Positions 2,789 to 19,655 of a DNA stretch of 59,527 nt are shown in pieces; the stretch's first letter is position 1, and the number at the start of each line of letters is the position of its first letter. This DNA is from Candidatus Uhrbacteria bacterium CG10_big_fil_rev_8_21_14_0_10_48_16 (GTDB lineage Bacteria > Patescibacteriota > Patescibacteriia > UBA9934 > GWF2-40-263), in the NCBI GenBank assembly GCA_002793515.1, contig PFEU01000018.1:96203-155729 (forward strand). The letters run 5' to 3'. The position numbers and the translations under genes were made by a program. Below the pieces are notes generated by a model. The model was not told where the DNA came from. It saw nothing but the letters and a program-made list of their open reading frames with translations, and did no database searches.

Positions 2789-4699
2789 CTATTCCCCTTT
2801 TTTCTCATCTTCTTCTTTCTTCTCCTCGAACTCAGCATCAATCGGCTCATCTTCTTTCTTCTCTTCTCCTTCAGCAGATGCCTCTGCATTAGCCTTGTCT
2901 TGAGCTTCGTACATCTTCGCGCCTACCGCTTGTGCGGAGGTTGATAGCTCGTCTGCGGCTTTCTTGATGGCTTCGTGATCGTCTGTATCTTTGACGGCTT
3001 TGAGCGCTTCAATCTTTTCTTCTACGCTCTTGCGTTCTTCATCCGTAATCTTGTCACCGGCGTCTTTTAACATTTTTTCTGATGTGTAGATCATGGTGTC
3101 AGCAAGGTTCTGATGCTCAGCTTTCTCCTTTGCCTTTGCATCTTCCTCTGCATGCTCTTCGGCTTCACGCTTCATGCGCTCTACCTCTTCATCAGAAAGT
3201 CCGGTTGAACCTTGAATGGTAATCGTCTGAGTCGTTCCACTTCCCTTATCCGTTCCGGTGACGTGCAAGATGCCGTTTGCATCAATATCAAACTTCACCT
3301 CAATTTGTGGGACACCCCGTGGGGCCATAGGAATTCCGGACAAGATGAATCGTCCAAGCGTCTTGTTTCCACCCGCAATCTCACGCTCTCCTTGAAGCAC
3401 ATGAATCTCAACGGTGTTCTGATTATCCGCCGCGGTGGAGAAGATCTGAGACTTGCTGGCTGGAATCGTCGTGTTGCGTTCAATGAGTTTGGTCATGACG
3501 CCCCCGAGAGTCTCAATCCCAACAGACAGTGGCGTTACGTCTAGAAGCAAAACATCTTTGACTTCTCCCTGCAACACACCTGCTTGCACGGAGGCTCCCA
3601 TCGCAACCACTTCGTCTGGGTTTACGGTCACGTTTGGTTTCTTGCCGAAGAATTCTTCAACGACTTTCTGGACAAGTGGCATGCGGGTCATTCCACCCAC
3701 CATAACAATCTCTTCAATCTGACCCTTTTCAAGACCCGCATCTTTCAATGCAGCCTTTACAGGCTCGAGCGTTTTTTGGACGAGATCATGCACCAGCTCC
3801 TCGAGCTTGCTTCGAGTCAGGGTCAACACCAAATGCTTTGGTCCGTTTGCATCTGACGTGATAAATGGTTGATTGACTTCTGTTTGTGTCGCGGTTGAAA
3901 GCTCAATCTTGGCACGCTCTGCTGCATCCTTCACACGCTGGAGCGCAAGGGAATCATTTCCAAGATCAATCCCTTCCTGGGCTTTAAACTCCTTCAAAAT
4001 CCAATCGATAATCACGCGATCAAAGTCGTCTCCTCCTAGGTGTGTATCTCCATTCGTGGACTTCACTTCAACCGTATCTTCACTCACGTCGAGCACAGAC
4101 ACATCGAATGTTCCTCCACCCAAATCGTACACCATGATTTGCTGACCGATTTTCTTATCAAACCCGTACGCAAGGGCTGCCGCCGTTGGCTCGTTAATGA
4201 TACGTCGCACCTTAAAACCGGCGATCTCTCCAGCCGTCTTTGTGGCATTTCGCTGGGCGTCATCAAAGTACGCAGGAACGGTAATGATGGCCTCATCGAT
4301 TTTTTCTCCGAGTTTCTCTTCAGCGTCCGCCTTCAGCTTCTGCAAAATCATCGCAGAAATTTCTTCTGGCGTGTATTCCTTGTCCCCCATCTTAATCGCC
4401 ACCCCATCTCCTTTTTGAACGATCTCGTAAGGCATGACTTCTTGGTCACGCTTCACTTCCTTATCTGCCCAACGTCGTCCAATCAATCGCTTAATCGAAA
4501 AAAGGGTGTTCATGGGATTGGTAACCGCCTGACGCTTTGCAGGAAGTCCGACAAGCCGTTCACCAGCTTTGTTCATGGCAACCATAGAAGGAGTCGTGCG
4601 AGCCCCTTCCTTATTTTCAAGAACCTTTGGTTGACCTCCTTCAATAATAGACATGCAGGAGTTTGTGGTACCAAGGTCAATTCCGAGAATTTTAGACAT
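2789..4699 (-). CDS. dnaK: chaperone protein DnaK (Hsp70)
   Basis: This ATP-dependent chaperone works with DnaJ and GrpE. The 636 residues start with the nucleotide-binding signature [10 protein letters not shown]. They also contain the phosphate motif [10 protein letters not shown], the GGMTRMP adenosine motif, the [14 protein letters not shown] linker and start of the substrate domain, and a helical lid ending in a Glu/Lys-rich tail. Length is normal. It follows grpE by 14 nt and belongs to the CIRCE-controlled transcript. No SD precedes the ATG. An 87-bp hairpin follows the stop. Confidence 0.98.
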
Positions 4700-4713
4700 A
4701 TGTAAACGTAATG

Positions 4714-5214
4714 TTAGTTTTTGTTGTTAATGATGACTTTTGCGGGACGGACGATTTTCTCGCCCAGTTTCCACCCGCGCTGAGCAACTTCGAGAATCTC
4801 TTGATCCTCTTTGTCTTCTTCTGTGCGCTCTCCTCCGGCGTCGTGTAGATGCACATCAAAGGTCTCGCCGATCGCTCCATAGGACACAAGACCCAAGTCC
4901 TGCATCACGCCTTCGAGTTGATTGCGTACATGCATGAGTCCCATGAGCCAGGTTTCGACGTCCTTTGCTAGACCTTCTGGCTGGAACTTCGCAGCTTGAT
5001 CAAAATTGTCGAGAACGACGATCAACTGGTGAGCGACATCCTCCTTCGCACGCAGACGGAGTTCTGAGCGTTCGCGCGCAAGATCTTTTTGAAGATTGTC
5101 GTAATCGGCAAGGGCACGTTTCCACCCCCCGAGATACTCCGCACATTTCTCACATGAGGCTGTCTCTGTTTCATCTCGTGTCTCTTCTTCTTGTGGTGTT
5201 TCTTCTTCGGTCAT
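4714..5214 (-). CDS. grpE: nucleotide exchange factor GrpE
   Basis: GrpE releases ADP from DnaK. The 166-residue protein has an acidic N-terminus (about 1-20), then a long helix ([13 protein letters not shown]), and the C-terminal beta-domain ending in RPAKVIINN, typical of GrpE. Two cysteines (CEKC) lie before the helix, which is unusual and could bind metal or respond to redox. It is the second gene of the hrcA-grpE-dnaK order. No SD is visible. Confidence 0.95.
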
Positions 5215-5233
5215 AGGGATAAATAAGGATCAG

Positions 5234-5935
5234 TTATTCAAAGTATTCGTCGAGCACTTCTTTCGCTCTCTCAATCAGGGCAAGGTTGCGTGAGTAGTCC
5301 ATCCGCAATGGACCGACGATGCCCAGCAAGCCCTGTGTTTCCTGATCGATGCGATAGCGCACCAGGATCGTTGCCATCTCTTCTCCAAACGGATTCCCTG
5401 ACCCGATAAAGACTTGAGGTCCTTCAGGAAGCGTGCGGTAAAGTTTGTGCATCACCTCATCGAACTGATCCACGAGCGCGGAGAGTGTTTGCATCATCTC
5501 TGCGTCATGAAAGTCTGGTTTGTGAAAGAGGTTTGAGACACCCGTGTAATAACTCCACTTTGGATCGATTGCCACAATGGCGGTTTCTCCGGAAATTTCG
5601 ACGAGGCGTTTTGCAATGGTCTTCAAGGTTGTTTCTGTGTCTCCTGTTCCGCGTGTGGCACTTTTGATCGGAGACCCTTGCAAGACGAATCGTTTATCTC
5701 GTAAATATTGTAAGTAATAGACGTAGGCTTTTTCTGTCGGGACTCGACCAGCCGACGTATGCGGGGCGCGTAGGTATCCGTCCCGTTCGAGGAGGGCCAG
5801 CTCGTTTCGGATCGTCGCATCAGAGACTCCTAGTTGATAGTGCTCATTCAAATACTTCGACCCAACCGGAGCGGCTGTTCGAATATAATCCTCCACCACA
5901 AGTTTCAAGACGAGTTCCGTTCGTGTTTCGAGCAT
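5234..5935 (-). CDS. hrcA: heat-inducible transcription repressor HrcA (short form)
   Basis: HrcA binds CIRCE operators and represses chaperone operons until heat stress. The N-terminal winged helix is clear (TELVLKLVVEDYIRTAAPVG, then GVSDATIRNELALLERDGYL and SAGRVPTEKAY). The C-terminal part keeps the GPxRMDYSRNLALIE motif. At 233 residues it is far below the usual ~340, so the central region is reduced. I chose ATG 5935; a TTG three codons upstream is possible. A perfect CIRCE and a strong promoter lie directly upstream, so the gene is autoregulated and nearly leaderless. Confidence 0.93.
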   Translation of the reverse strand: MLETRTELVLKLVVEDYIRTAAPVGSKYLNEHYQLGVSDATIRNELALLERDGYLRAPHTSAGRVPTEKAYVYYLQYLRDKRFVLQGSPIKSATRGTGDTETTLKTIAKRLVEISGETAIVAIDPKWSYYTGVSNLFHKPDFHDAEMMQTLSALVDQFDEVMHKLYRTLPEGPQVFIGSGNPFGEEMATILVRYRIDQETQGLLGIVGPLRMDYSRNLALIERAKEVLDEYFE

Positions 5936-11263: not shown

Positions 11264-11327
11264 GACGGACTCCTGAGCAGAATTGCTCTCATAAAAATGC
11301 CTTTATCCATCTTTCCTGTCAAATCTT

Positions 11328-11355
11328 GATTCTCCGAAGTCAGTATGCTATCCTC
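11328..11355 (+). promoter_or_regulatory. candidate promoter of the tRNA-Glu locus
   Basis: TTGATT, 16 bp, TATCCT, ending 25 bp before the first copy of the tRNA-Glu 5' end. It is the only promoter-like pair I see between the 40-residue gene and the tRNA. Confidence 0.45.
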
Positions 11356-11375
11356 TGCTCGTTCACAAACACCCA

Positions 11376-11447
11376 ACACGGCCTCATCGTCTAACGGTTA
11401 TCCGGCAGACCGGCCGAGCAAAGTTGCCGGTTGCCGGGGGACACCAG
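11376..11447 (+). pseudogene. degenerate duplicate of the tRNA-Glu 5' half
   Basis: Bases 11376-11401 are an exact 26-bp copy of 11574-11599, covering the acceptor 5' strand and D-arm of the intact tRNA-Glu. The following bases (to a CACCA at 11443-11447) keep only traces of a tRNA. The 3' strand pairs at about five of seven acceptor positions and there is no proper T-loop. At 67 nt from acceptor to CCA it is a decayed tRNA rather than a functional one. Confidence 0.65.
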
Positions 11448-11459
11448 TTGTTCAATCGT

Positions 11460-11600
11460 CCTTACAGACTTATTTATAAGGAAAGATACGAAACAAAAAC
11501 TCAAGCACTTCACCGTGAACGTCAGATCAAGAACTCGGGAGCCATTCGCAAGGGCATCAAACGTCAACTGACAAACACGGCCTCATCGTCTAACGGTTAG
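11460..11600 (+). pseudogene. C-terminal remnant of a GIY-YIG endonuclease running into tRNA-Glu
   Basis: The frame reads YRLIYKERYETKTQALHRER, then QIKNSGAIRKGIKRQL, before passing into the tRNA 5' end and stopping at TAG 11598-11600. This matches the C-terminal half of small GIY-YIG (UvrC N-like) nucleases, with the E of YKE and the REREIK-like helix. The N-terminal GIY-YIG half is missing and is replaced by the degenerate tRNA copy. It is therefore a truncated relic sandwiched between two tRNA-Glu 5' copies. Confidence 0.6.
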
Positions 11601-11653
11601 GACATCAGGTTCTCATCCTGGAAATCGGGGTTCGATTCCCCGTGGGGTCACCA
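11579..11653 (+). tRNA. tRNA-Glu (CTC anticodon)
   Basis: A complete 75-nt tRNA with encoded CCA. The acceptor is GGCCTCA/TGGGGTC with G-T pairs and the D-arm contains TAACGGTTA. The anticodon stem is TCAGG/CCTGG around TTCTCAT, giving anticodon CTC (Glu). The T-arm is CGGGG-TTCGATT-CCCCG. Its last 19 bases (11635-11653) recur three more times downstream as the ends of the non-coding units, making it the anchor of the island. Confidence 0.95.
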
Positions 11654-11849
11654 CAAAAAACGCTCAGCGAAAGCTGGGTGTTTTTTGTGGTGATCTTACG
11701 ATGGATAAGAGACCCGAGGGTTCGATGCTGGAGGGAGAGAGCGGAGAGAAATGAAAAGGTACATTGTTTATCCCTTTTCATTTCTCTCCCGAACGAGCGA
11801 CAGCAATATTTGATTTGCACCAAATCAAATATTCCCCGTGGGGTCACCA
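11654..11849 (+). mobile_element. tRNA-end-bounded non-coding unit 1 (196 bp)
   Basis: The unit starts after the tRNA CCA and ends in a 19-bp copy of the tRNA 3' end (11831-11849). It contains three hairpins. The first (11650-11691) has A/T-rich arms and could act as the tRNA terminator. The second is a perfect 17-bp stem (11743-11759 with 11773-11789). The third is a perfect 13-bp stem (11805-11833). A T-loop-like GGGTTCGATG lies at 11719-11728. No convincing gene is present. The layout suggests a minimal non-autonomous element or a structured RNA. Confidence 0.7.
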
Positions 11850-12050
11850 ATAAAAACGCTCACCTGCAAGGTGGGCGTTTTTATTGGTACCTGACGATGG
11901 ATGAGCACCCCGAGGGTTCGATGCGTGAGAGAGTGAGGTGATAAATGAAAGTCGATTTTTATTTAACGACTTGTATTTATCACCGAGCGAACGAACGCAA
12001 TATGTGAGACAGAATGTTTGTCGTCTCACATATTCCCCGTGGGGTCACCA
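11850..12050 (+). mobile_element. tRNA-end-bounded non-coding unit 2 (201 bp, divergent sequence, same architecture)
   Basis: It has the same order of parts as unit 1: an A/T-armed hairpin (11846-11888), GACGATGGAT and a GAGGGTTCGATG core, then a long hairpin GGTGATAAAT.../...ATTTATCACC (11937-11984). A third hairpin AATATGTGAGAC/GTCTCACATATT and a 19-bp tRNA end (12032-12050) follow. Hairpin sequences differ from unit 1 but pairing is kept, which indicates compensatory change or exchange of hairpins. Confidence 0.7.
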
Positions 12051-12270
12051 CAAAAAACGCTCAGCGAAAGCTGGGTGTTTTTTGTGGTGATCTTACGATG
12101 GATAAGAGACCCGAGGGTTCGATGATGGAGGGAGAGAGCGGAATGAAAATACTCGAATAAACATGAAACCGTCTTCAGTCGTTTCGATGTTTAGAGAGTG
12201 TTTTCATTCCCGAACGAGCGACAGCAATATTTGATTTGCACCAAATCAAATATTCCCCGTGGGGTCACCA
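12051..12270 (+). mobile_element. tRNA-end-bounded non-coding unit 3 (220 bp, near-identical frame to unit 1)
   Basis: Outside the central hairpin it matches unit 1 except for one base (GATGCTGG becomes GATGATGG). The central hairpin is replaced by an unrelated, longer imperfect one (12140-12210) whose ends GGAATGAAAA/TTTTCATTCC pair. It ends in the 19-bp tRNA copy at 12252-12270. Another A/T-armed hairpin (12271-12301) follows, as after every tRNA-end copy. Confidence 0.7.
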
Positions 12271-12302
12271 AAAGGGACTGCTCATCACGAGCGGTCTCTT
12301 TT
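12271..12302 (+). terminator. terminator-like hairpin after the fourth tRNA end
   Basis: AAAGGGACTGCTC/GAGCGGTCTCTTT with two wobble pairs, followed by T residues. It occupies the position directly after CCA, as in the other units. Confidence 0.6.
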
Positions 12303-12356
12303 AATTGTAGTATTGTAAAAAGCACATAACCCGACCTGACCCTAATGGTGTTTTCG

Positions 12357-12506
12357 TGCTCGAGCAACAGTTACAAATGTGGAGATTTTTCTACCCACGA
12401 CCAGGCGCAGGCGGTTTATGAGTGCTGTGTGGATCAGGTGGGCTACGACGTACACTAACTCGACGGATCAGATAATGATGGACAGGCGTGCGAGAGTTTG
12501 CCGTAA
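12357..12506 (+). pseudogene. excalibur-domain (calcium-binding) C-terminal remnant with internal stop
   Basis: The frame reads CSSNSYKCGDFSTHDQAQAV, then YECC..., stop, LDGSDNDGQACESLP, stop. This is the typical excalibur motif (DxDxDGxACE) found at the end of secreted nucleases and surface proteins. An in-frame TAA splits it and no N-terminal part is visible, so it is a decayed fragment. It ends five bases before the convergent peptidase-like gene. Confidence 0.6.
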
Positions 12507-15243: not shown

Positions 15244-15269
15244 ACTCATTACCATCAATCTATCCAAAT

Positions 15270-15823
15270 ATGAAAAAACTTATGACACCAGCCAAAACAG
15301 CTGAGAAAACAAATCAAGAGAGTGAGCTATTCAAACTTGCAAAGAAACTCGTCACAGAGCGCATCCCAGGCTTCAGAAAAGGAACATCAGATGTTCCTGC
15401 CTACACCCATTCCATTAGCGTAGCTGATTCCTTACAGAAGATTGGATGCAGATAGGACGTACATACCGCAGTACTCTTACATGACATTGTAGAAGACGGA
15501 GACACAACCCTGGAGGAACTCAAAGAACTTGGCTTCTCTGATCGAACCGTCGCTCTTGTCAATCTATGCTCTCACGATGAATCTGTGAAAGTAAGTGAAG
15601 CAGCTGGGTGAAGATGATCGCAAGGCTTTCAGAAGCAAACGATCAAGATGTATGGATAATCAAGCTCGCAGACATCCTCGACAACCTTCACTCATGTCAC
15701 ACCATGCCCCTCGACCGCCAAAAGTTTATGAAAGAAACAAAGGCCCCTCTCATGTTGAAGCTCACGGAAGGACAACTGTCGGATCATCCTATCTGGAAGG
15801 AATTGAAGAATGAGGTTGAATAG
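15270..15823 (+). pseudogene. broken HD-domain (RelA/SpoT-like) phosphohydrolase
   Basis: Read from ATG 15270, the frame gives PAYTHSISVADSLQKIGCR, an in-frame TAG (15453-15455), then DVHTAVLLHDIVEDGDTTLEE. That is a clear HD motif (LLHDIVED) of ppGpp hydrolase-type enzymes. A second break after SVKVSEAAG moves the frame to one reading KMIARLSEANDQDVWIIKLA, then DILDNL and an end at TAG 15823. That second frame carries the late KLADxLDN motif. Two independent lesions make it a pseudogene. Confidence 0.75.
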
Positions 15824-15827
15824 CGTA

Positions 15828-15933
15828 ACCCTTCCCGACACTTCACGTCCCAACCATAATTAACTCCTGAAATCGCACCTACTCTCTCAACTCCCCTACC
15901 CAAGGGTTCCAACCAAGTCCCCGTGGAAGGCAC
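15828..15933 (+). repeat. island boundary repeat P (about 106 bp)
   Basis: This is related over its whole length to 19549-19655. Both start ACCCTTCCCGA, contain TGAAAT in the middle, and end in GGTTCCAAC(C/G)AAGTCCCC. By eye roughly 60% of bases agree, more at the ends. It closes the module holding the peptidase, structured RNA and HD pseudogene. The end (AAGTCCCCGTGG) resembles the tRNA-Glu 3' end. Confidence 0.6.
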
Positions 15934-16020: not shown

Positions 16021-18267
16021 CTATTGAACTTGAATTCGCGCACGACTCTCAATTGAGACATATTCTCTGTGCTCAGCTTTAATCAAACTATGCAAGTCAA
16101 TGCGTTGACTTGGATCACTAGTAACATCCTCTACAGTTAGTATAAGTGCGTAGTCTTGAACATGTATTTCGTCGTCTAAGCTACCTCTGGTCGTTAGTGT
16201 TAACCAGACTTCCCATTCTCCTCCAGAATAAGCAGTAAACGTTTTTTCAAAATGTTTTACAGGGTTCCACTTACTTCTGTAATTTTCAGTTCCAGATGAT
16301 AATTGTGCAGAACTCTTATTACCTTTTCCATTTATAAAATAGAGGTTGCAAGCCACATCAACTAATGAATAGTCAACATCACCACTTACACTGATGGGAG
16401 GTGTATATACCAAGGTTCCTCTTACTCGAATTTTCTTATCCTTTCCAACTAAAGACTCCGGTACAACGACACGAATCTTATGTTTAGTTTTCTTGATTTC
16501 TTTATCTTTGATTTCAACAGACTGGCCAATAGATCCAGTATGAATGAAAGTGGCTTCAGATTTAGCGCAACTAATAGATCGACTAAAGTCAGGAATACCG
16601 AACCCAACCATCCTTGAAACATCCTCTTTTTTAATACCAGAGTCATCCGGCAATTCATAAACGGCAGAATGTATTACTAAGGCTTTAGTCAGATCTGTTA
16701 AGAAACGTTTATCACGATTCGTAGCTTCAAGATAGTCATAAAGACGCGCAGCAATTTGACTAACCAAAGGAGCTGAAAAGCTGGTACCTACACTTTCACT
16801 AATTTTCCCATTTTGAATGTCGCATCCGTTTACACCAATACCTGCACAGCCAAAATACGTATCCAAATTACCACCATAATGCGTTACATCAGGTTTATAT
16901 ATTTCTGCTGACCCAACACGACTAAAAGGTGAGGGTTCATTAAATAATGCAATTGATCTTGTAGACGCAGCATCTGTAACAGATCCTACAGTGATGGCAC
17001 TTAATGAATCTGCAGGTGAAGTAATTCTGGATATTTCGTTTAACATGCAGGCAGGAAAAGGAAGCATCTTAGCAGTATCGTGATTCCCTGCAGAAACAAT
17101 GAACAAGACCTTGTGTTTATGAGCTAAGGCGTCCAATTCTCTAGTAAAAAAACTTTTTTTGCCCGCAAGTACATCCGCTGGATTTTCCGAATTAAGAGAT
17201 AGATTAAAAACGCGCACATGAGCGTTATCCGGATTTTCTAAAAAATCCTTCATGGCACTAATGATATCTTTTGGATCTCCAGATCCATTTTTCATTACAG
17301 GAAGATCAACTACTTTTGCATAAGCAATCAACGTATTATCTGTTCGTATTTGATGCTCAATGTTATTGCCATAGATTGTGCGACTAGCCACAAAAGTTCC
17401 ATGACTTAAATTTCCTGTCGTGGCTGATGACCCTAGAAGAAACGGTGAAATAAGGTCGTTCCCGGCAATACCGCTGTCTACGACACCAACAACTGCATTT
17501 CCAGTTAAATCTCTCAGCTCGATATCGTTAAAGTCACAGTCAAACGCAATAGACTGTGGGAAGACAAAATCGACGGCGCGTTCAATTTTATCAATAGGAA
17601 TTCGTGGGTCAGGATCTGAAATGGCATCAACAAAACTTCTGCTAAATTTTCCGTATACTACTTTTGCTCCTGATTCAGCAACAAAAAAATTCGAAGAACT
17701 TACTCCATCTTGTCGCTCTATCATTGCATGAACTACCTTACACTCATTAATAGAAAGTGTGTCTGCAAAATACAGGAATGCTTTCATCTCTGTTTCTTCT
17801 CCAAGATCAAGAACTAATTTATCTTCGCGTGAAATAGGATCAATGCTAGTTACCGCTGACAGATACGCTGCATCATGTTTATTGTCAGAAAGGGTTAAAC
17901 CGCTGACAGAATCACGAAAAGACTGAAGATTTTCTTCGGTTGCGGAAGCAAAAAATTTACGCTCGCCTCTTTGAGAATACACATCGATATTACTTGCCTC
18001 AAGAAGCTTTCTTGGTTGAACAGATTTAGATAAAGCTTCTTCGTGAAATTCCACCTCGAAAAACAAGCTGTTATCAGGTCCCGCAATTGATGGTTCATCA
18101 GTTGAGATAATACTAAAAATCCGATCCAGTTCTTGAACGCGTTGCAACTTATGATGTTCGAAATCAGACTTTTCACCTATATACTTTGGGGGCTTACCAC
18201 CCCCAGTCTTTGAGTCAGTTCTGATATTTTCTTGTGGTATTTGGAATAGTGGTCGCTCAACTTGCAT
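16021..18267 (-). CDS. ietS: subtilisin-like serine protease, IetS-type anti-phage component
   Basis: The S8 catalytic triad is readable: Asp264 in GVVDSGIAG, His289 in LSHGTFVASRT and Ser496 in SVGTSFSAP, with Asn395 (SAGNHD) as the oxyanion residue. The first ~230 residues are a family-specific N-terminal region without a signal peptide, so the protease probably acts in the cytosol. Residues ~580-748 form a beta-rich C-terminal region. It overlaps the AAA ATPase gene by 11 bp. An AAA ATPase joined to an S8 peptidase is the published IetAS defence architecture. Composition is AT-richer than the core genes. A lone intracellular subtilase is the alternative. Confidence 0.8.
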   Translation of the reverse strand: MQVERPLFQIPQENIRTDSKTGGGKPPKYIGEKSDFEHHKLQRVQELDRIFSIISTDEPSIAGPDNSLFFEVEFHEEALSKSVQPRKLLEASNIDVYSQRGERKFFASATEENLQSFRDSVSGLTLSDNKHDAAYLSAVTSIDPISREDKLVLDLGEETEMKAFLYFADTLSINECKVVHAMIERQDGVSSSNFFVAESGAKVVYGKFSRSFVDAISDPDPRIPIDKIERAVDFVFPQSIAFDCDFNDIELRDLTGNAVVGVVDSGIAGNDLISPFLLGSSATTGNLSHGTFVASRTIYGNNIEHQIRTDNTLIAYAKVVDLPVMKNGSGDPKDIISAMKDFLENPDNAHVRVFNLSLNSENPADVLAGKKSFFTRELDALAHKHKVLFIVSAGNHDTAKMLPFPACMLNEISRITSPADSLSAITVGSVTDAASTRSIALFNEPSPFSRVGSAEIYKPDVTHYGGNLDTYFGCAGIGVNGCDIQNGKISESVGTSFSAPLVSQIAARLYDYLEATNRDKRFLTDLTKALVIHSAVYELPDDSGIKKEDVSRMVGFGIPDFSRSISCAKSEATFIHTGSIGQSVEIKDKEIKKTKHKIRVVVPESLVGKDKKIRVRGTLVYTPPISVSGDVDYSLVDVACNLYFINGKGNKSSAQLSSGTENYRSKWNPVKHFEKTFTAYSGGEWEVWLTLTTRGSLDDEIHVQDYALILTVEDVTSDPSQRIDLHSLIKAEHREYVSIESRARIQVQ

Positions 18268-19378
18268 ACTTTTTAACTAGATTATGGAGTGAGGAATGAG
18301 CTATACCCGTAAGCTGCTCCAGATAAGCAAAGGTGTATTTTTTACTGTCTTCTTCTTGCAACGATAGAATAGCCTCTCTGAGTGCTTGTTTTTCCTTCAG
18401 TCTTCCGTACTCAATTTTTCGGTGTCTGTATGTTTTTAACATTTCTTCTATCACGAATGACTGTAAAGAATTAACAGACTCCTCTAGCACACTTCTTCGT
18501 AATGCAGATTCTACTACTTGACGAAGGTCCGCCCCCGATAACCCAACGGCAATTTTTGAAACAAGCAACGAGTCAATATTTTGAGAATCGTTTATATATA
18601 AACTCAGGATTGATTTCAATTGTTCTTGCGTTGGGAGACTAAAAGAGCATCGATAGTTAAAACGTCTCCAAACAGCTTTATCCAAAAGATGTTCGTGATT
18701 TGTAGCAGCAAAGAGAATACTTGAGTTTAAAAATTCATCAATATTTTGTAGCAGTACAGTTACTACACGTTTAAGTTCTCCGAGTTCGTGGGCGTCATCA
18801 CGCTGTTTCGCCACCGCATCAAACTCATCAAGAAAGAGAATGCAATTTCTCTTGTTTGCCTCATCAAAGATTGCTCGAATATTTTTACCCGTCTCTCCTA
18901 AATACGAAGAAATAAGTGAGTCAATGTGTATATGCATTACAGGTAAGTCTAGTGCACCAGCAAGTGCATAAACGAAAAGAGTTTTTCCAGTTCCTGGAGG
19001 GCCATATAACAACACTTTCAGGTCATTAACAATTCCTTTTTTTAAAAGCAGGTCAGATTTCCTGTACGATTCAGTAATTTGTTTGAAAATATCATCTTGT
19101 TGATCGCTCAAAACGATATTATCCAAGTTTAGTTTAGAACGCCTCCACTCAAACATGGAATTGCTCTGCAATGTTGCCAATGAGTTACTGGTATGTGCTG
19201 AACTGGTTTGCATGCCATTAGAAAACAACGAGGATTTGAGTTGTCGCAACTTTTTTGCCACGTTTATATGTCCTCGCTTTTCAGAATTTTTTATCAGCTC
19301 TTTAATTTTCTTCTCAGCTTCATGCTGATTGTCTGACAGCAGAGCTTCGATAATTTGAAGGTAAATGTCTGTTGCCAT
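18257..19378 (-). CDS. ietA: AAA ATPase, IetA-type anti-phage component
   Basis: The 373-residue protein has Walker A GPPGTGKT near 124-131, Walker B ILFLDEFD near 179-186, sensor-1 AATN near 223, and an arginine-finger region VWRRFN near 235-240. This is a classical AAA (FtsH/spastin-like) core preceded by a short helical N-terminal domain. The C-terminus ends with a helix-rich lid. It is the upstream gene of a translationally coupled pair with the subtilase, which suggests that the ATPase senses infection or remodels substrates for proteolysis. No SD is visible before ATG 19378. Confidence 0.8.
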   Translation of the reverse strand: MATDIYLQIIEALLSDNQHEAEKKIKELIKNSEKRGHINVAKKLRQLKSSLFSNGMQTSSAHTSNSLATLQSNSMFEWRRSKLNLDNIVLSDQQDDIFKQITESYRKSDLLLKKGIVNDLKVLLYGPPGTGKTLFVYALAGALDLPVMHIHIDSLISSYLGETGKNIRAIFDEANKRNCILFLDEFDAVAKQRDDAHELGELKRVVTVLLQNIDEFLNSSILFAATNHEHLLDKAVWRRFNYRCSFSLPTQEQLKSILSLYINDSQNIDSLLVSKIAVGLSGADLRQVVESALRRSVLEESVNSLQSFVIEEMLKTYRHRKIEYGRLKEKQALREAILSLQEEDSKKYTFAYLEQLTGIAHSSLHNLVKKYAS

Positions 19379-19548
19379 ATGTTACTATTGTACGCTATCC
19401 AAATTCAATTAGAAAGCATCGATTTGGATGGACTGTGGATGGGTGAAAGTGCTTTAAAAAATCAATACGATTTTTCGCGACAGTTAACAAGTTCATAGGG
19501 TCAAGTCGTGAATCGTAGCGTTTTGGTGATAATCAAATTAATAGTGCG
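19379..19548. other. intergenic region upstream of ietA
   Basis: No gene seen. It must hold the ietA promoter (a TACAAT-like element lies about 20 bp before the ATG on the minus strand), but no convincing -35 is spaced from it. Confidence 0.4.
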
Positions 19549-19655
19549 ACCCTTCCCGATTTGTCAGACCCCTTTTAAACATAACTGTTGAAATGCCAGC
19601 CAGCCCTTCATCTCCTCCACTAATTGGTTCCAACGAAGTCCCCTAAGGGTCACCA
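19549..19655 (+). repeat. island boundary repeat Q with tRNA-like 3' end
   Basis: Partner of repeat P at 15828-15933. It ends AGTCCCCTAAGGGTCACCA (19637-19655), which mimics the tRNA-Glu 3' terminus ATTCCCCGTGGGGTCACCA. It is followed at once by an A/T-armed terminator hairpin, just as the real tRNA is. This is the likely distal border of the tRNA-Glu island. Confidence 0.65.

Follow-up and report, generated by a model that had tools for sequence, protein, structure and literature searches.

A family of gene-free hairpin elements with strong signs of mobility at the tRNA genes of Candidatus Uhrbacteria

The analysed window, a 59,527-nucleotide stretch of contig PFEU01000018.1 from Candidatus Uhrbacteria bacterium CG10_big_fil_rev_8_21_14_0_10_48_16, holds a single tRNA gene, an intact tRNA-Glu(CTC), followed by three units in tandem and, further downstream, by gene cassettes (Table 1). 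The last 17 bases of this tRNA (11637-11653) double as the 5' end of unit 1. As described in the initial annotation, the 19-base tRNA-Glu 3' end ATTCCCCGTGGGGTCACCA is repeated exactly, at 11635 (in the tRNA itself), 11831, 12032 and 12252, with measured spacings of 196, 201 and 220 bp, and all units share the same succession of a terminator-like hairpin, GGGTTCGATG, a long hairpin, an A/T-rich hairpin and the tRNA end. They are also free of genes, as had been claimed: the 99-aa and 81-aa ORFs present merely traverse tRNA and repeat sequence, and neither is a credible gene. A genome-wide search placed the 15-mer CCCGTGGGGTCACCA at four positions of the 0.99-Mb genome, all of them in the tRNA-Glu array, and its reversed control gave no match across the same genome.

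The natural borders of the units were refined to those listed in Table 1. The stem of the first hairpin of each unit extends into CACCA, and the tRNA 3' end reappears in inverted orientation behind this hairpin, a feature absent from the initial annotation. The order within each unit is consequently tRNA 3' end, terminator-like hairpin, inverted tRNA 3' end, GGGTTCGAT and a core, the final AT of which directly abuts the next TCCCCGTGGGGTCACCA. In unit 1, the inverted copy shares 19 of 28 positions with the reverse complement of the tRNA-Glu 3' end, with an alignment score above those of all 300 shuffles. The three units have folding energies of -87 to -90 kcal/mol (z from -7.9 to -9.8; 0/200 shuffles as good). 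In unit 3, hairpin B is exchanged for a 71-nt type which is also present in a tRNA-Gly unit. An assembly artefact is unlikely, since the same anatomy recurs at further loci and in many genomes that were assembled independently. The tRNA-Glu gene begins with ~25 bases (CACGGCCTCATCGTCTAACGGTTA; 11577-11602) that are duplicated 200 bp further upstream (11377-11402), where they continue into TCCGGCAGACCGG; read on the other strand, the duplicate may be what is left of an antisense element located in the D-loop.

Table 1. Features of the tRNA-Glu(CTC) array and of the adjoining cassettes (window coordinates)
Feature	Position	Strand	Remarks
tRNA-Glu(CTC), intact	11579..11653	+	Rfam tRNA match, 58 bits
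Unit 1, 196 bp	11637..11832	+	tRNA 3' end, terminator-like hairpin, inverted tRNA 3'-end copy, GGTTCGAT, core with 47-nt hairpin B
Terminator-like hairpin, unit 1	11649..11692	+	stem into CACCA/TGGTG; unit 3 equivalent at 12046-12089
Inverted (fold-back) tRNA-Glu 3'-end copy	11688..11717 (unit 1), 11885-11913 (unit 2), 12085-12114 (unit 3)	+	
Landing sequence GGTTCGAT	11719..11726 (unit 1), 11915-11922 (unit 2), 12116-12123 (unit 3)	+	
Unit 1 core	11727..11832	+	stem A with tandem G.A, hairpin B, AAT, hairpin C, AT; covariance model R1, 61.8 bits
Unit 2, 201 bp	11833..12033	+	diverged, 72% to unit 1 across first 117 nt
Unit 2 core	11923..12033	+	covariance model R1, 52.7 bits; model match stops at 12017, hairpin C to 12033 from folding
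Unit 3, 220 bp	12034..12253	+	60-nt left flank identical to that of unit 1
Unit 3 core	12124..12253	+	covariance model R1, 54.5 bits; 97% core identity to tRNA-Gly copy
tRNA-Glu 3' end and left end of large serine recombinase (LSR) element	12254..12313	+	61/63 identical to unit-free G012 tRNA-Glu junction; recombinase gene not found here
Cassette A, attachment-site-like end	15827..15925	+	CCTTCCCGA...GGTTCCAAC..AGTCCCC
Cassette B cargo	16021..19378	-	subtilase (16021-18267) and AAA ATPase (18257-19378), IetS/IetA anti-phage pair
Cassette B, attachment-site-like end	19546..19655	+	eroded tRNA-Glu 3' end, terminator after

The core is defined by its structure and not by its sequence. Ranging from 80 to 140 bp, it consists of a stem with G.A motifs, a hypervariable hairpin B and an AT-ended hairpin C. 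Stem A reads GCGT/ACGC, or compensated variants of it, and continues with GAGnGAGnGAG opposite CCGARCGARYGA, which align as three tandem G.A pairs with a G-C pair after each, the basal stem having 4-5 pairs before the three G.A tandems. Hairpin B accepts any sequence and any length (the B segment spans 24-72 nt in the seed) and leads through AAT to the variable hairpin C and the terminal AT. In the 22-sequence seed, 88% of the named pairs form, a figure which leans towards structure since the sequences were trimmed and aligned with the structure in view, yet none of 500 shuffles was as good and a slide of the alignment by a single column brings pairing down to 29-40%, a large drop. Changes on both sides were observed at 15 of the 22 pairs. 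As for cargo between the two core halves, left motifs that lacked a right half were background-like matches or lay at contig ends, except for one truncated copy in a relative (G004).

BLAST comparisons of the units with their own genome (G000) and its relatives placed the core at further loci, and covariance model R1, built from the 22-copy seed, retrieved 54 copies in 22 of the 43 genomes of the host family (Candidatus Uhrbacteria). In G000, the same anatomy occurs behind tRNA-Gly (two units), tRNA-Leu, tRNA-Cys and the tmRNA; in the relatives, it is found at tRNA-Glu, Gly, Leu, Cys, His, Arg, Lys and Thr and at the tmRNA. In the wider order, only two of 30 genomes outside the family matched the model, both weakly. 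Over the named GTDB genomes, the hosts of an exact 21-nt pattern were Candidatus Uhrbacteria, plus scattered matches elsewhere which the model rejected or scored weakly. Among Rfam 15 families, only tRNA passed its gathering threshold, the best other match lying far below its own. A viral origin was also considered and set aside: the core pattern had one IMG/VR match, unconfirmed by the model, the cassette attachment site had none in IMG/VR, and phage records showed only ordinary tRNA genes among the matches listed. The literature searched, with subscription journals and preprints outside its coverage, held no description of the element. The copies form a family of tiny, structure-defined and probably mobile elements, apparently undescribed and found so far almost only in Uhrbacteria.

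Insertion sites were inspected for 53 copies (an arrow marks the boundary). The left tetramer is CGAT in 39 of them, most of the others being AT-ended, and the right end is TAT or GAT in 38. Twenty-eight copies are of the T-loop type, located after (G)GTTCGAT in the eight tRNA species and the tmRNA listed above, where the core sits exactly after the TTCGAT of the T-loop (GGTTCGAT↓CC). Ten others are in antisense orientation at a tRNA-Gln or tRNA-Asp 5' end (TAGACGAT↓ or CCACCGAT↓), and the remainder are mostly free-standing, several of these abutting a start codon (AT↓G) in the sense direction, including those of rpsL in G014 and of a comM-like gene in G006. The core thus stands directly 3' of AT, mostly CGAT, and therefore occurs in T-loops, at antisense tRNA-Gln/Asp 5' ends and at start codons. 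That tRNAs are targets is sufficiently accounted for by GGTTCGATCC, the tRNA T-arm consensus, by itself. T-loop units, which stack head to tail, also contain a terminator, a tRNA 3' end and, in most cases, this 3' end in inverted form; because each unit brings its own tRNA 3' end, the adjoining tRNA stays complete. Upstream of tRNA-Arg(tct), loci L065 (G034) and L067 (G004) carry partial 5' copies of tRNA-Arg followed by a stretch that, read antisense, looks like the 3' end of a core (CCGAACGAGGCGATATGATCTGAGAATCAGAT↓CC in L067), so that this tRNA is flanked by two inverted copies.

Several comparisons between genomes bear on movement. In G012 and G005, tRNA-Glu(CTC) is joined directly to the sequence found after unit 3 in the window, a sequence which in both relatives forms the left end of a recombinase element, and the 617-bp block is missing; at the identity given in Table 1 for the empty junction of G012, the block is therefore a clean insertion after TTCGAT. 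The start codon of the comM-like gene carries a copy in G006 and is empty in its orthologue in G024, from another species of the same genus. Behind tRNA-Gly, two units are present in G000 vs. one in G004; at tRNA-Gln, copies are arranged head to tail, and G012 has two tRNA-Gln genes with the same copy. Near-identical cores also occur in unrelated surroundings. Unit 3 and the first tRNA-Gly unit are 97% identical in the core and 56% (background level) in the flank, the tRNA-Cys and tmRNA units 89% and 48%, respectively, while units 1 and 3 of the window are 100% identical over the 60-nt left flank and 62% in the core. Judged from these identities, cores and flanks have had separate histories, and part of the core swapping could be gene conversion between copies.

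Taken together, the hairpin family bears strong signs of mobility. The initial annotation had proposed minimal mobile elements moved by an integrase encoded elsewhere; its mobile part is supported by the dispersal of the element, its precise position after TTCGAT, the many tRNAs occupied, the empty sites, the variation in unit number between species and the exchange of cores independently of flanks, while the integrase part is not. Variation in unit number and a tie to tRNA ends, on which that proposal had been made to depend, are both present.

In most T-loop units, the 3' end of the unit's own tRNA, taken as its reverse complement, is the best match to the stretch separating the terminator from GGTTCGAT; the exceptions, among them the units at tRNA-Arg, tRNA-Thr and tRNA-Cys, fail against shuffles or match another tRNA better. 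At the loci with such a fold-back flank, the layout is tRNA end forward, tRNA end reversed, T-arm forward, core and tRNA end forward. During insertion or repair, a hairpin may have primed the copying of the tRNA 3' end into this flank, and the terminator palindrome would be the natural turning point. Palindromes are slippage hotspots, and the array could in principle have been built passively: the tRNA 3' end would have been duplicated with fold-backs when replication slipped or switched templates at the palindrome of the tRNA terminator, and homologous recombination would have spread the units, with no transposition at all. The tRNA 3' end, present in inverted as well as direct copies, would fit such a process, as would the nearly identical proximal and distal terminators of several units (tRNA-Cys, tRNA-His). 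However, passive duplication leaves unexplained the conserved core and its exact position after CGAT at unrelated loci, the copies at start codons, for which a sister species shows an empty site, and the near-identical cores in unrelated flanks, and we consider it highly improbable.

Another reading takes the units for functional structured RNAs under selection, that is tRNA-linked small RNAs or processing/termination modules, with the start-codon hairpins acting as 5'-UTR regulators. It draws on the strong conserved secondary structure with its compensatory changes and on the non-tRNA copies that lie sense to, and abut, a start codon, such as those before rpsL and the comM-like gene. The co-transcription with the tRNA that the initial annotation had offered as an alternative is nevertheless not supported, in view of the terminator-like hairpin that opens every T-loop unit of the window, of copies lying antisense at tRNA 5' ends and of those at start codons; a simple scan of 11300-12500 returned no promoter-like site, and copies are missing from closely related genomes. 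Concerning the flank, its pairing with the local tRNA-end copy is inconsistent: the inverted flank of the G022 tRNA-Glu unit fits the changed local copy, as a selected RNA would, whereas that of the G031 tRNA-His unit fits the tRNA and not the diverged copy. Pairing that is not consistently kept argues against a conserved RNA role, which we regard as quite improbable.

The tRNA-Glu gene is also a hotspot for LSR elements. A conserved sequence of ~95 nt followed by the tRNA-Glu 3' end closes gene cassettes in G004, G005, G019 and G041, and twice in the window, and the same M23 peptidase gene lies downstream of the last cassette end in both G000 and G004. Only in G005, G012 and G008 is an LSR gene convergent to tRNA-Glu, its 3' end lying inside the tRNA; these three LSRs are 67-77% identical to one another. 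The hairpin units might therefore be miniature derivatives of LSR elements, moved in trans by the tRNA-Glu LSR with the hairpins as passengers: a conserved LSR reaches into the same tRNA in three relatives, LSR cassettes close with their ~95-nt site and the same tRNA end, the left end of an LSR element persists in the window after unit 3, and both kinds of element insert in the T-arm. Against this, the cassette end (..CCCATTGGTTCCAACGAAG↓TCCCC) is unlike hairpin C (..AT↓TCCCC), and the hairpin element occupies many tRNAs, the tmRNA and start codons, which exceeds the target of one LSR. Furthermore, the tRNA-Glu LSR was not found in G000, where two PF07508 matches are only ~25% identical, and no recombinase gene lies within the hairpin units. 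While the LSR cassettes account for the surroundings, they do not account for the hairpin units, whose ends are different and which occupy many other tRNAs; an LSR origin of the units is unlikely.

In cassette A (window 15250-15825), an apparently broken HD-type hydrolase gene, with an interrupted frame, was noticed by eye before the attachment site. In G041, which belongs to a different family of this order, tRNA-Glu is occupied by another kind of structured unit without genes (L229, 2276-2475, and from 3626 onwards); its terminator is followed by an inverted tRNA-end copy, and it reappears as the left portion of a later cassette. At L259 (G000:C6:159000-164412), a 528-aa LSR ORF (3737-5323) overlaps tRNA-Ser(cga), suggesting a second LSR-occupied tRNA in G000.

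On balance, we favour, with moderate confidence, the reading that the units carry a small non-autonomous element, the core of which would be moved in trans as a folded single strand and inserted 3' of CGAT. A trans-acting enzyme would recognise the folded single-stranded core by its shape, and insertion would proceed in the manner of IS200/IS605 or REP elements. The terminal AT of the core would itself offer a landing site to a further copy. Oriented insertion 3' of a short motif with end hairpins, as in IS200/IS605, is the mode that fits best; insertion of this kind, immediately 3' of a fixed short target, is seen in the prevalence of CGAT↓ and at the empty sites. Enzymes of the IS200/IS605 type are known to recognise folded single strands (PMC6006769, PMC8266576). 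The tRNA-Gln copies depart from a simple cut-and-insert scheme, which does not explain them, as the basal stem itself belongs to the tRNA end.

None of the candidates examined, namely RAYT/IS200, tyrosine recombinase and LSR, could be tied to the element as its mobilising enzyme, and no transposase gene lies inside or beside any copy. RAYT/IS200 (PF01797) is present in 30 of the 43 genomes, uncorrelated with the element: both occur together in 17 genomes (~15 expected), and five carrier genomes are devoid of PF01797. A covariance-model search of 30 RAYT/Y1 loci with ~1.5 kb of flanks gave no credible copy, the lone match being 1.6 kb from the gene, and no IS200-type guide tetranucleotide was identified. 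Concerning tyrosine recombinases, which had been named as enzymes to look for, the only PF00589 protein detected in G000 is Xer-sized and was rejected as the mover; so was the tRNA-Glu LSR, whose attachment ends are unlike the hairpin-unit ends. As a separate observation, L166 (G000:C16, ~1230-2010) holds a 226-aa RAYT-like gene (NHYH, YIHLNP) with AAGTCSGACTTACGACAAT-like palindromes on both sides. Its product resembles RAYT subclass 2.1 as defined in PMC6006769, a study that found no REP for this subclass.

A bolder proposal, which we offer tentatively and hold to be possible but doubtful, is that of a class of elements reading the universal T-loop (GGTTCGAT↓CC) as a landing site common to many tRNAs. 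Such elements would be recognised through a tandem-G.A 'zipper' hairpin and not through sequence, would be harmless to essential genes thanks to the fold-back rebuilding of the tRNA 3' end, and would also enter AT↓G start codons, setting a hairpin before genes.

While tRNA genes are classic docking sites of mobile DNA, the elements known to us that dock there bring an integrase of their own and are mostly specific for a single tRNA. In this case, many tRNA species and the tmRNA of one bacterial family are occupied by a hairpin of ~100 bp without any gene, which leaves host tRNAs whole and stacks in arrays. If it is moved by shape in trans, this would show that the reduced genomes of CPR bacteria are reshaped by elements without genes, and mobility can be put to the test at the precise empty sites. 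The hairpin units also explain the otherwise puzzling repeated tRNA ends of Uhrbacteria-type genomes, which annotators should not take for tRNA fragments or small RNAs.

Among known systems, REPs and REPINs are small non-coding imperfect palindromes, multi-copy and mostly extragenic, believed to be moved in trans by RAYT (TnpA_REP) as folded single strands (PMC3116915, PMC8266576, PMC6006769). The hairpin element resembles them as small, non-coding, multi-copy palindrome-type DNA. However, a REP has a GTAG or GTGG tetranucleotide 0-2 nt 5' of its hairpin (PMC6006769), whereas the foot of the hairpin element is CGAT↓GCGT, CGAT↓GCTG or CGAT↓CCGG, with no GTAG/GTGG/CGTC tag; REPs measure 21-65 nt with a fully paired basal stem of 7-20 nt, as against a core of 80-140 nt with G.A tandems and two hairpins. 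Moreover, the element is tied to tRNA T-loops, no copy flanks the cognate tnpA_REP loci searched, and the host RAYT has a different repeat (AAGTCSGACTTACGAC-like) on both sides. The core was accordingly rejected as a REP on the tag, the stem and size, and the tnpA_REP flank as defined in PMC6006769.

With IS200/IS605 elements and their miniature derivatives, the hairpin element shares insertion 3' of a short fixed motif in one orientation, subterminal hairpins and stand-alone sites without long target duplication; it differs from them in having neither a transposase gene nor a detectable guide tetranucleotide. We know of no tRNA 3'-end copies in the flanks of the IS200/IS605 family.

Integron attC sites are likewise folded, with a hypervariable terminal hairpin above a conserved basal stem and with some positions unpaired or mismatched, and form head-to-tail arrays at a fixed site. 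The hypervariable tip and the arrays are shared, but the boundaries of the hairpin element are AT↓, without R/L boxes (RYYYAAC / GTTRRRY), GTT crossover or intI, and its cores, unlike integron cassettes, are gene-free and also land alone at start codons. As for tRNA-integrating elements (LSR and tyrosine-integrase islands, satellites, tycheposons), they too insert in the 3' part of the gene, restore the tRNA by a copy and occupy it in tandem, whereas the hairpin units of 196-220 bp are gene-free and show no recognisable attP, a single core family being used at many tRNAs, the tmRNA and start codons. Finally, the hairpin intervening sequences of bacterial 23S rRNA are short hairpins within loops of structured RNAs, a placement which the hairpin element shares; in contrast to them, it keeps separate intact tRNAs, has conserved G.A stem motifs and appears to move between RNA types.
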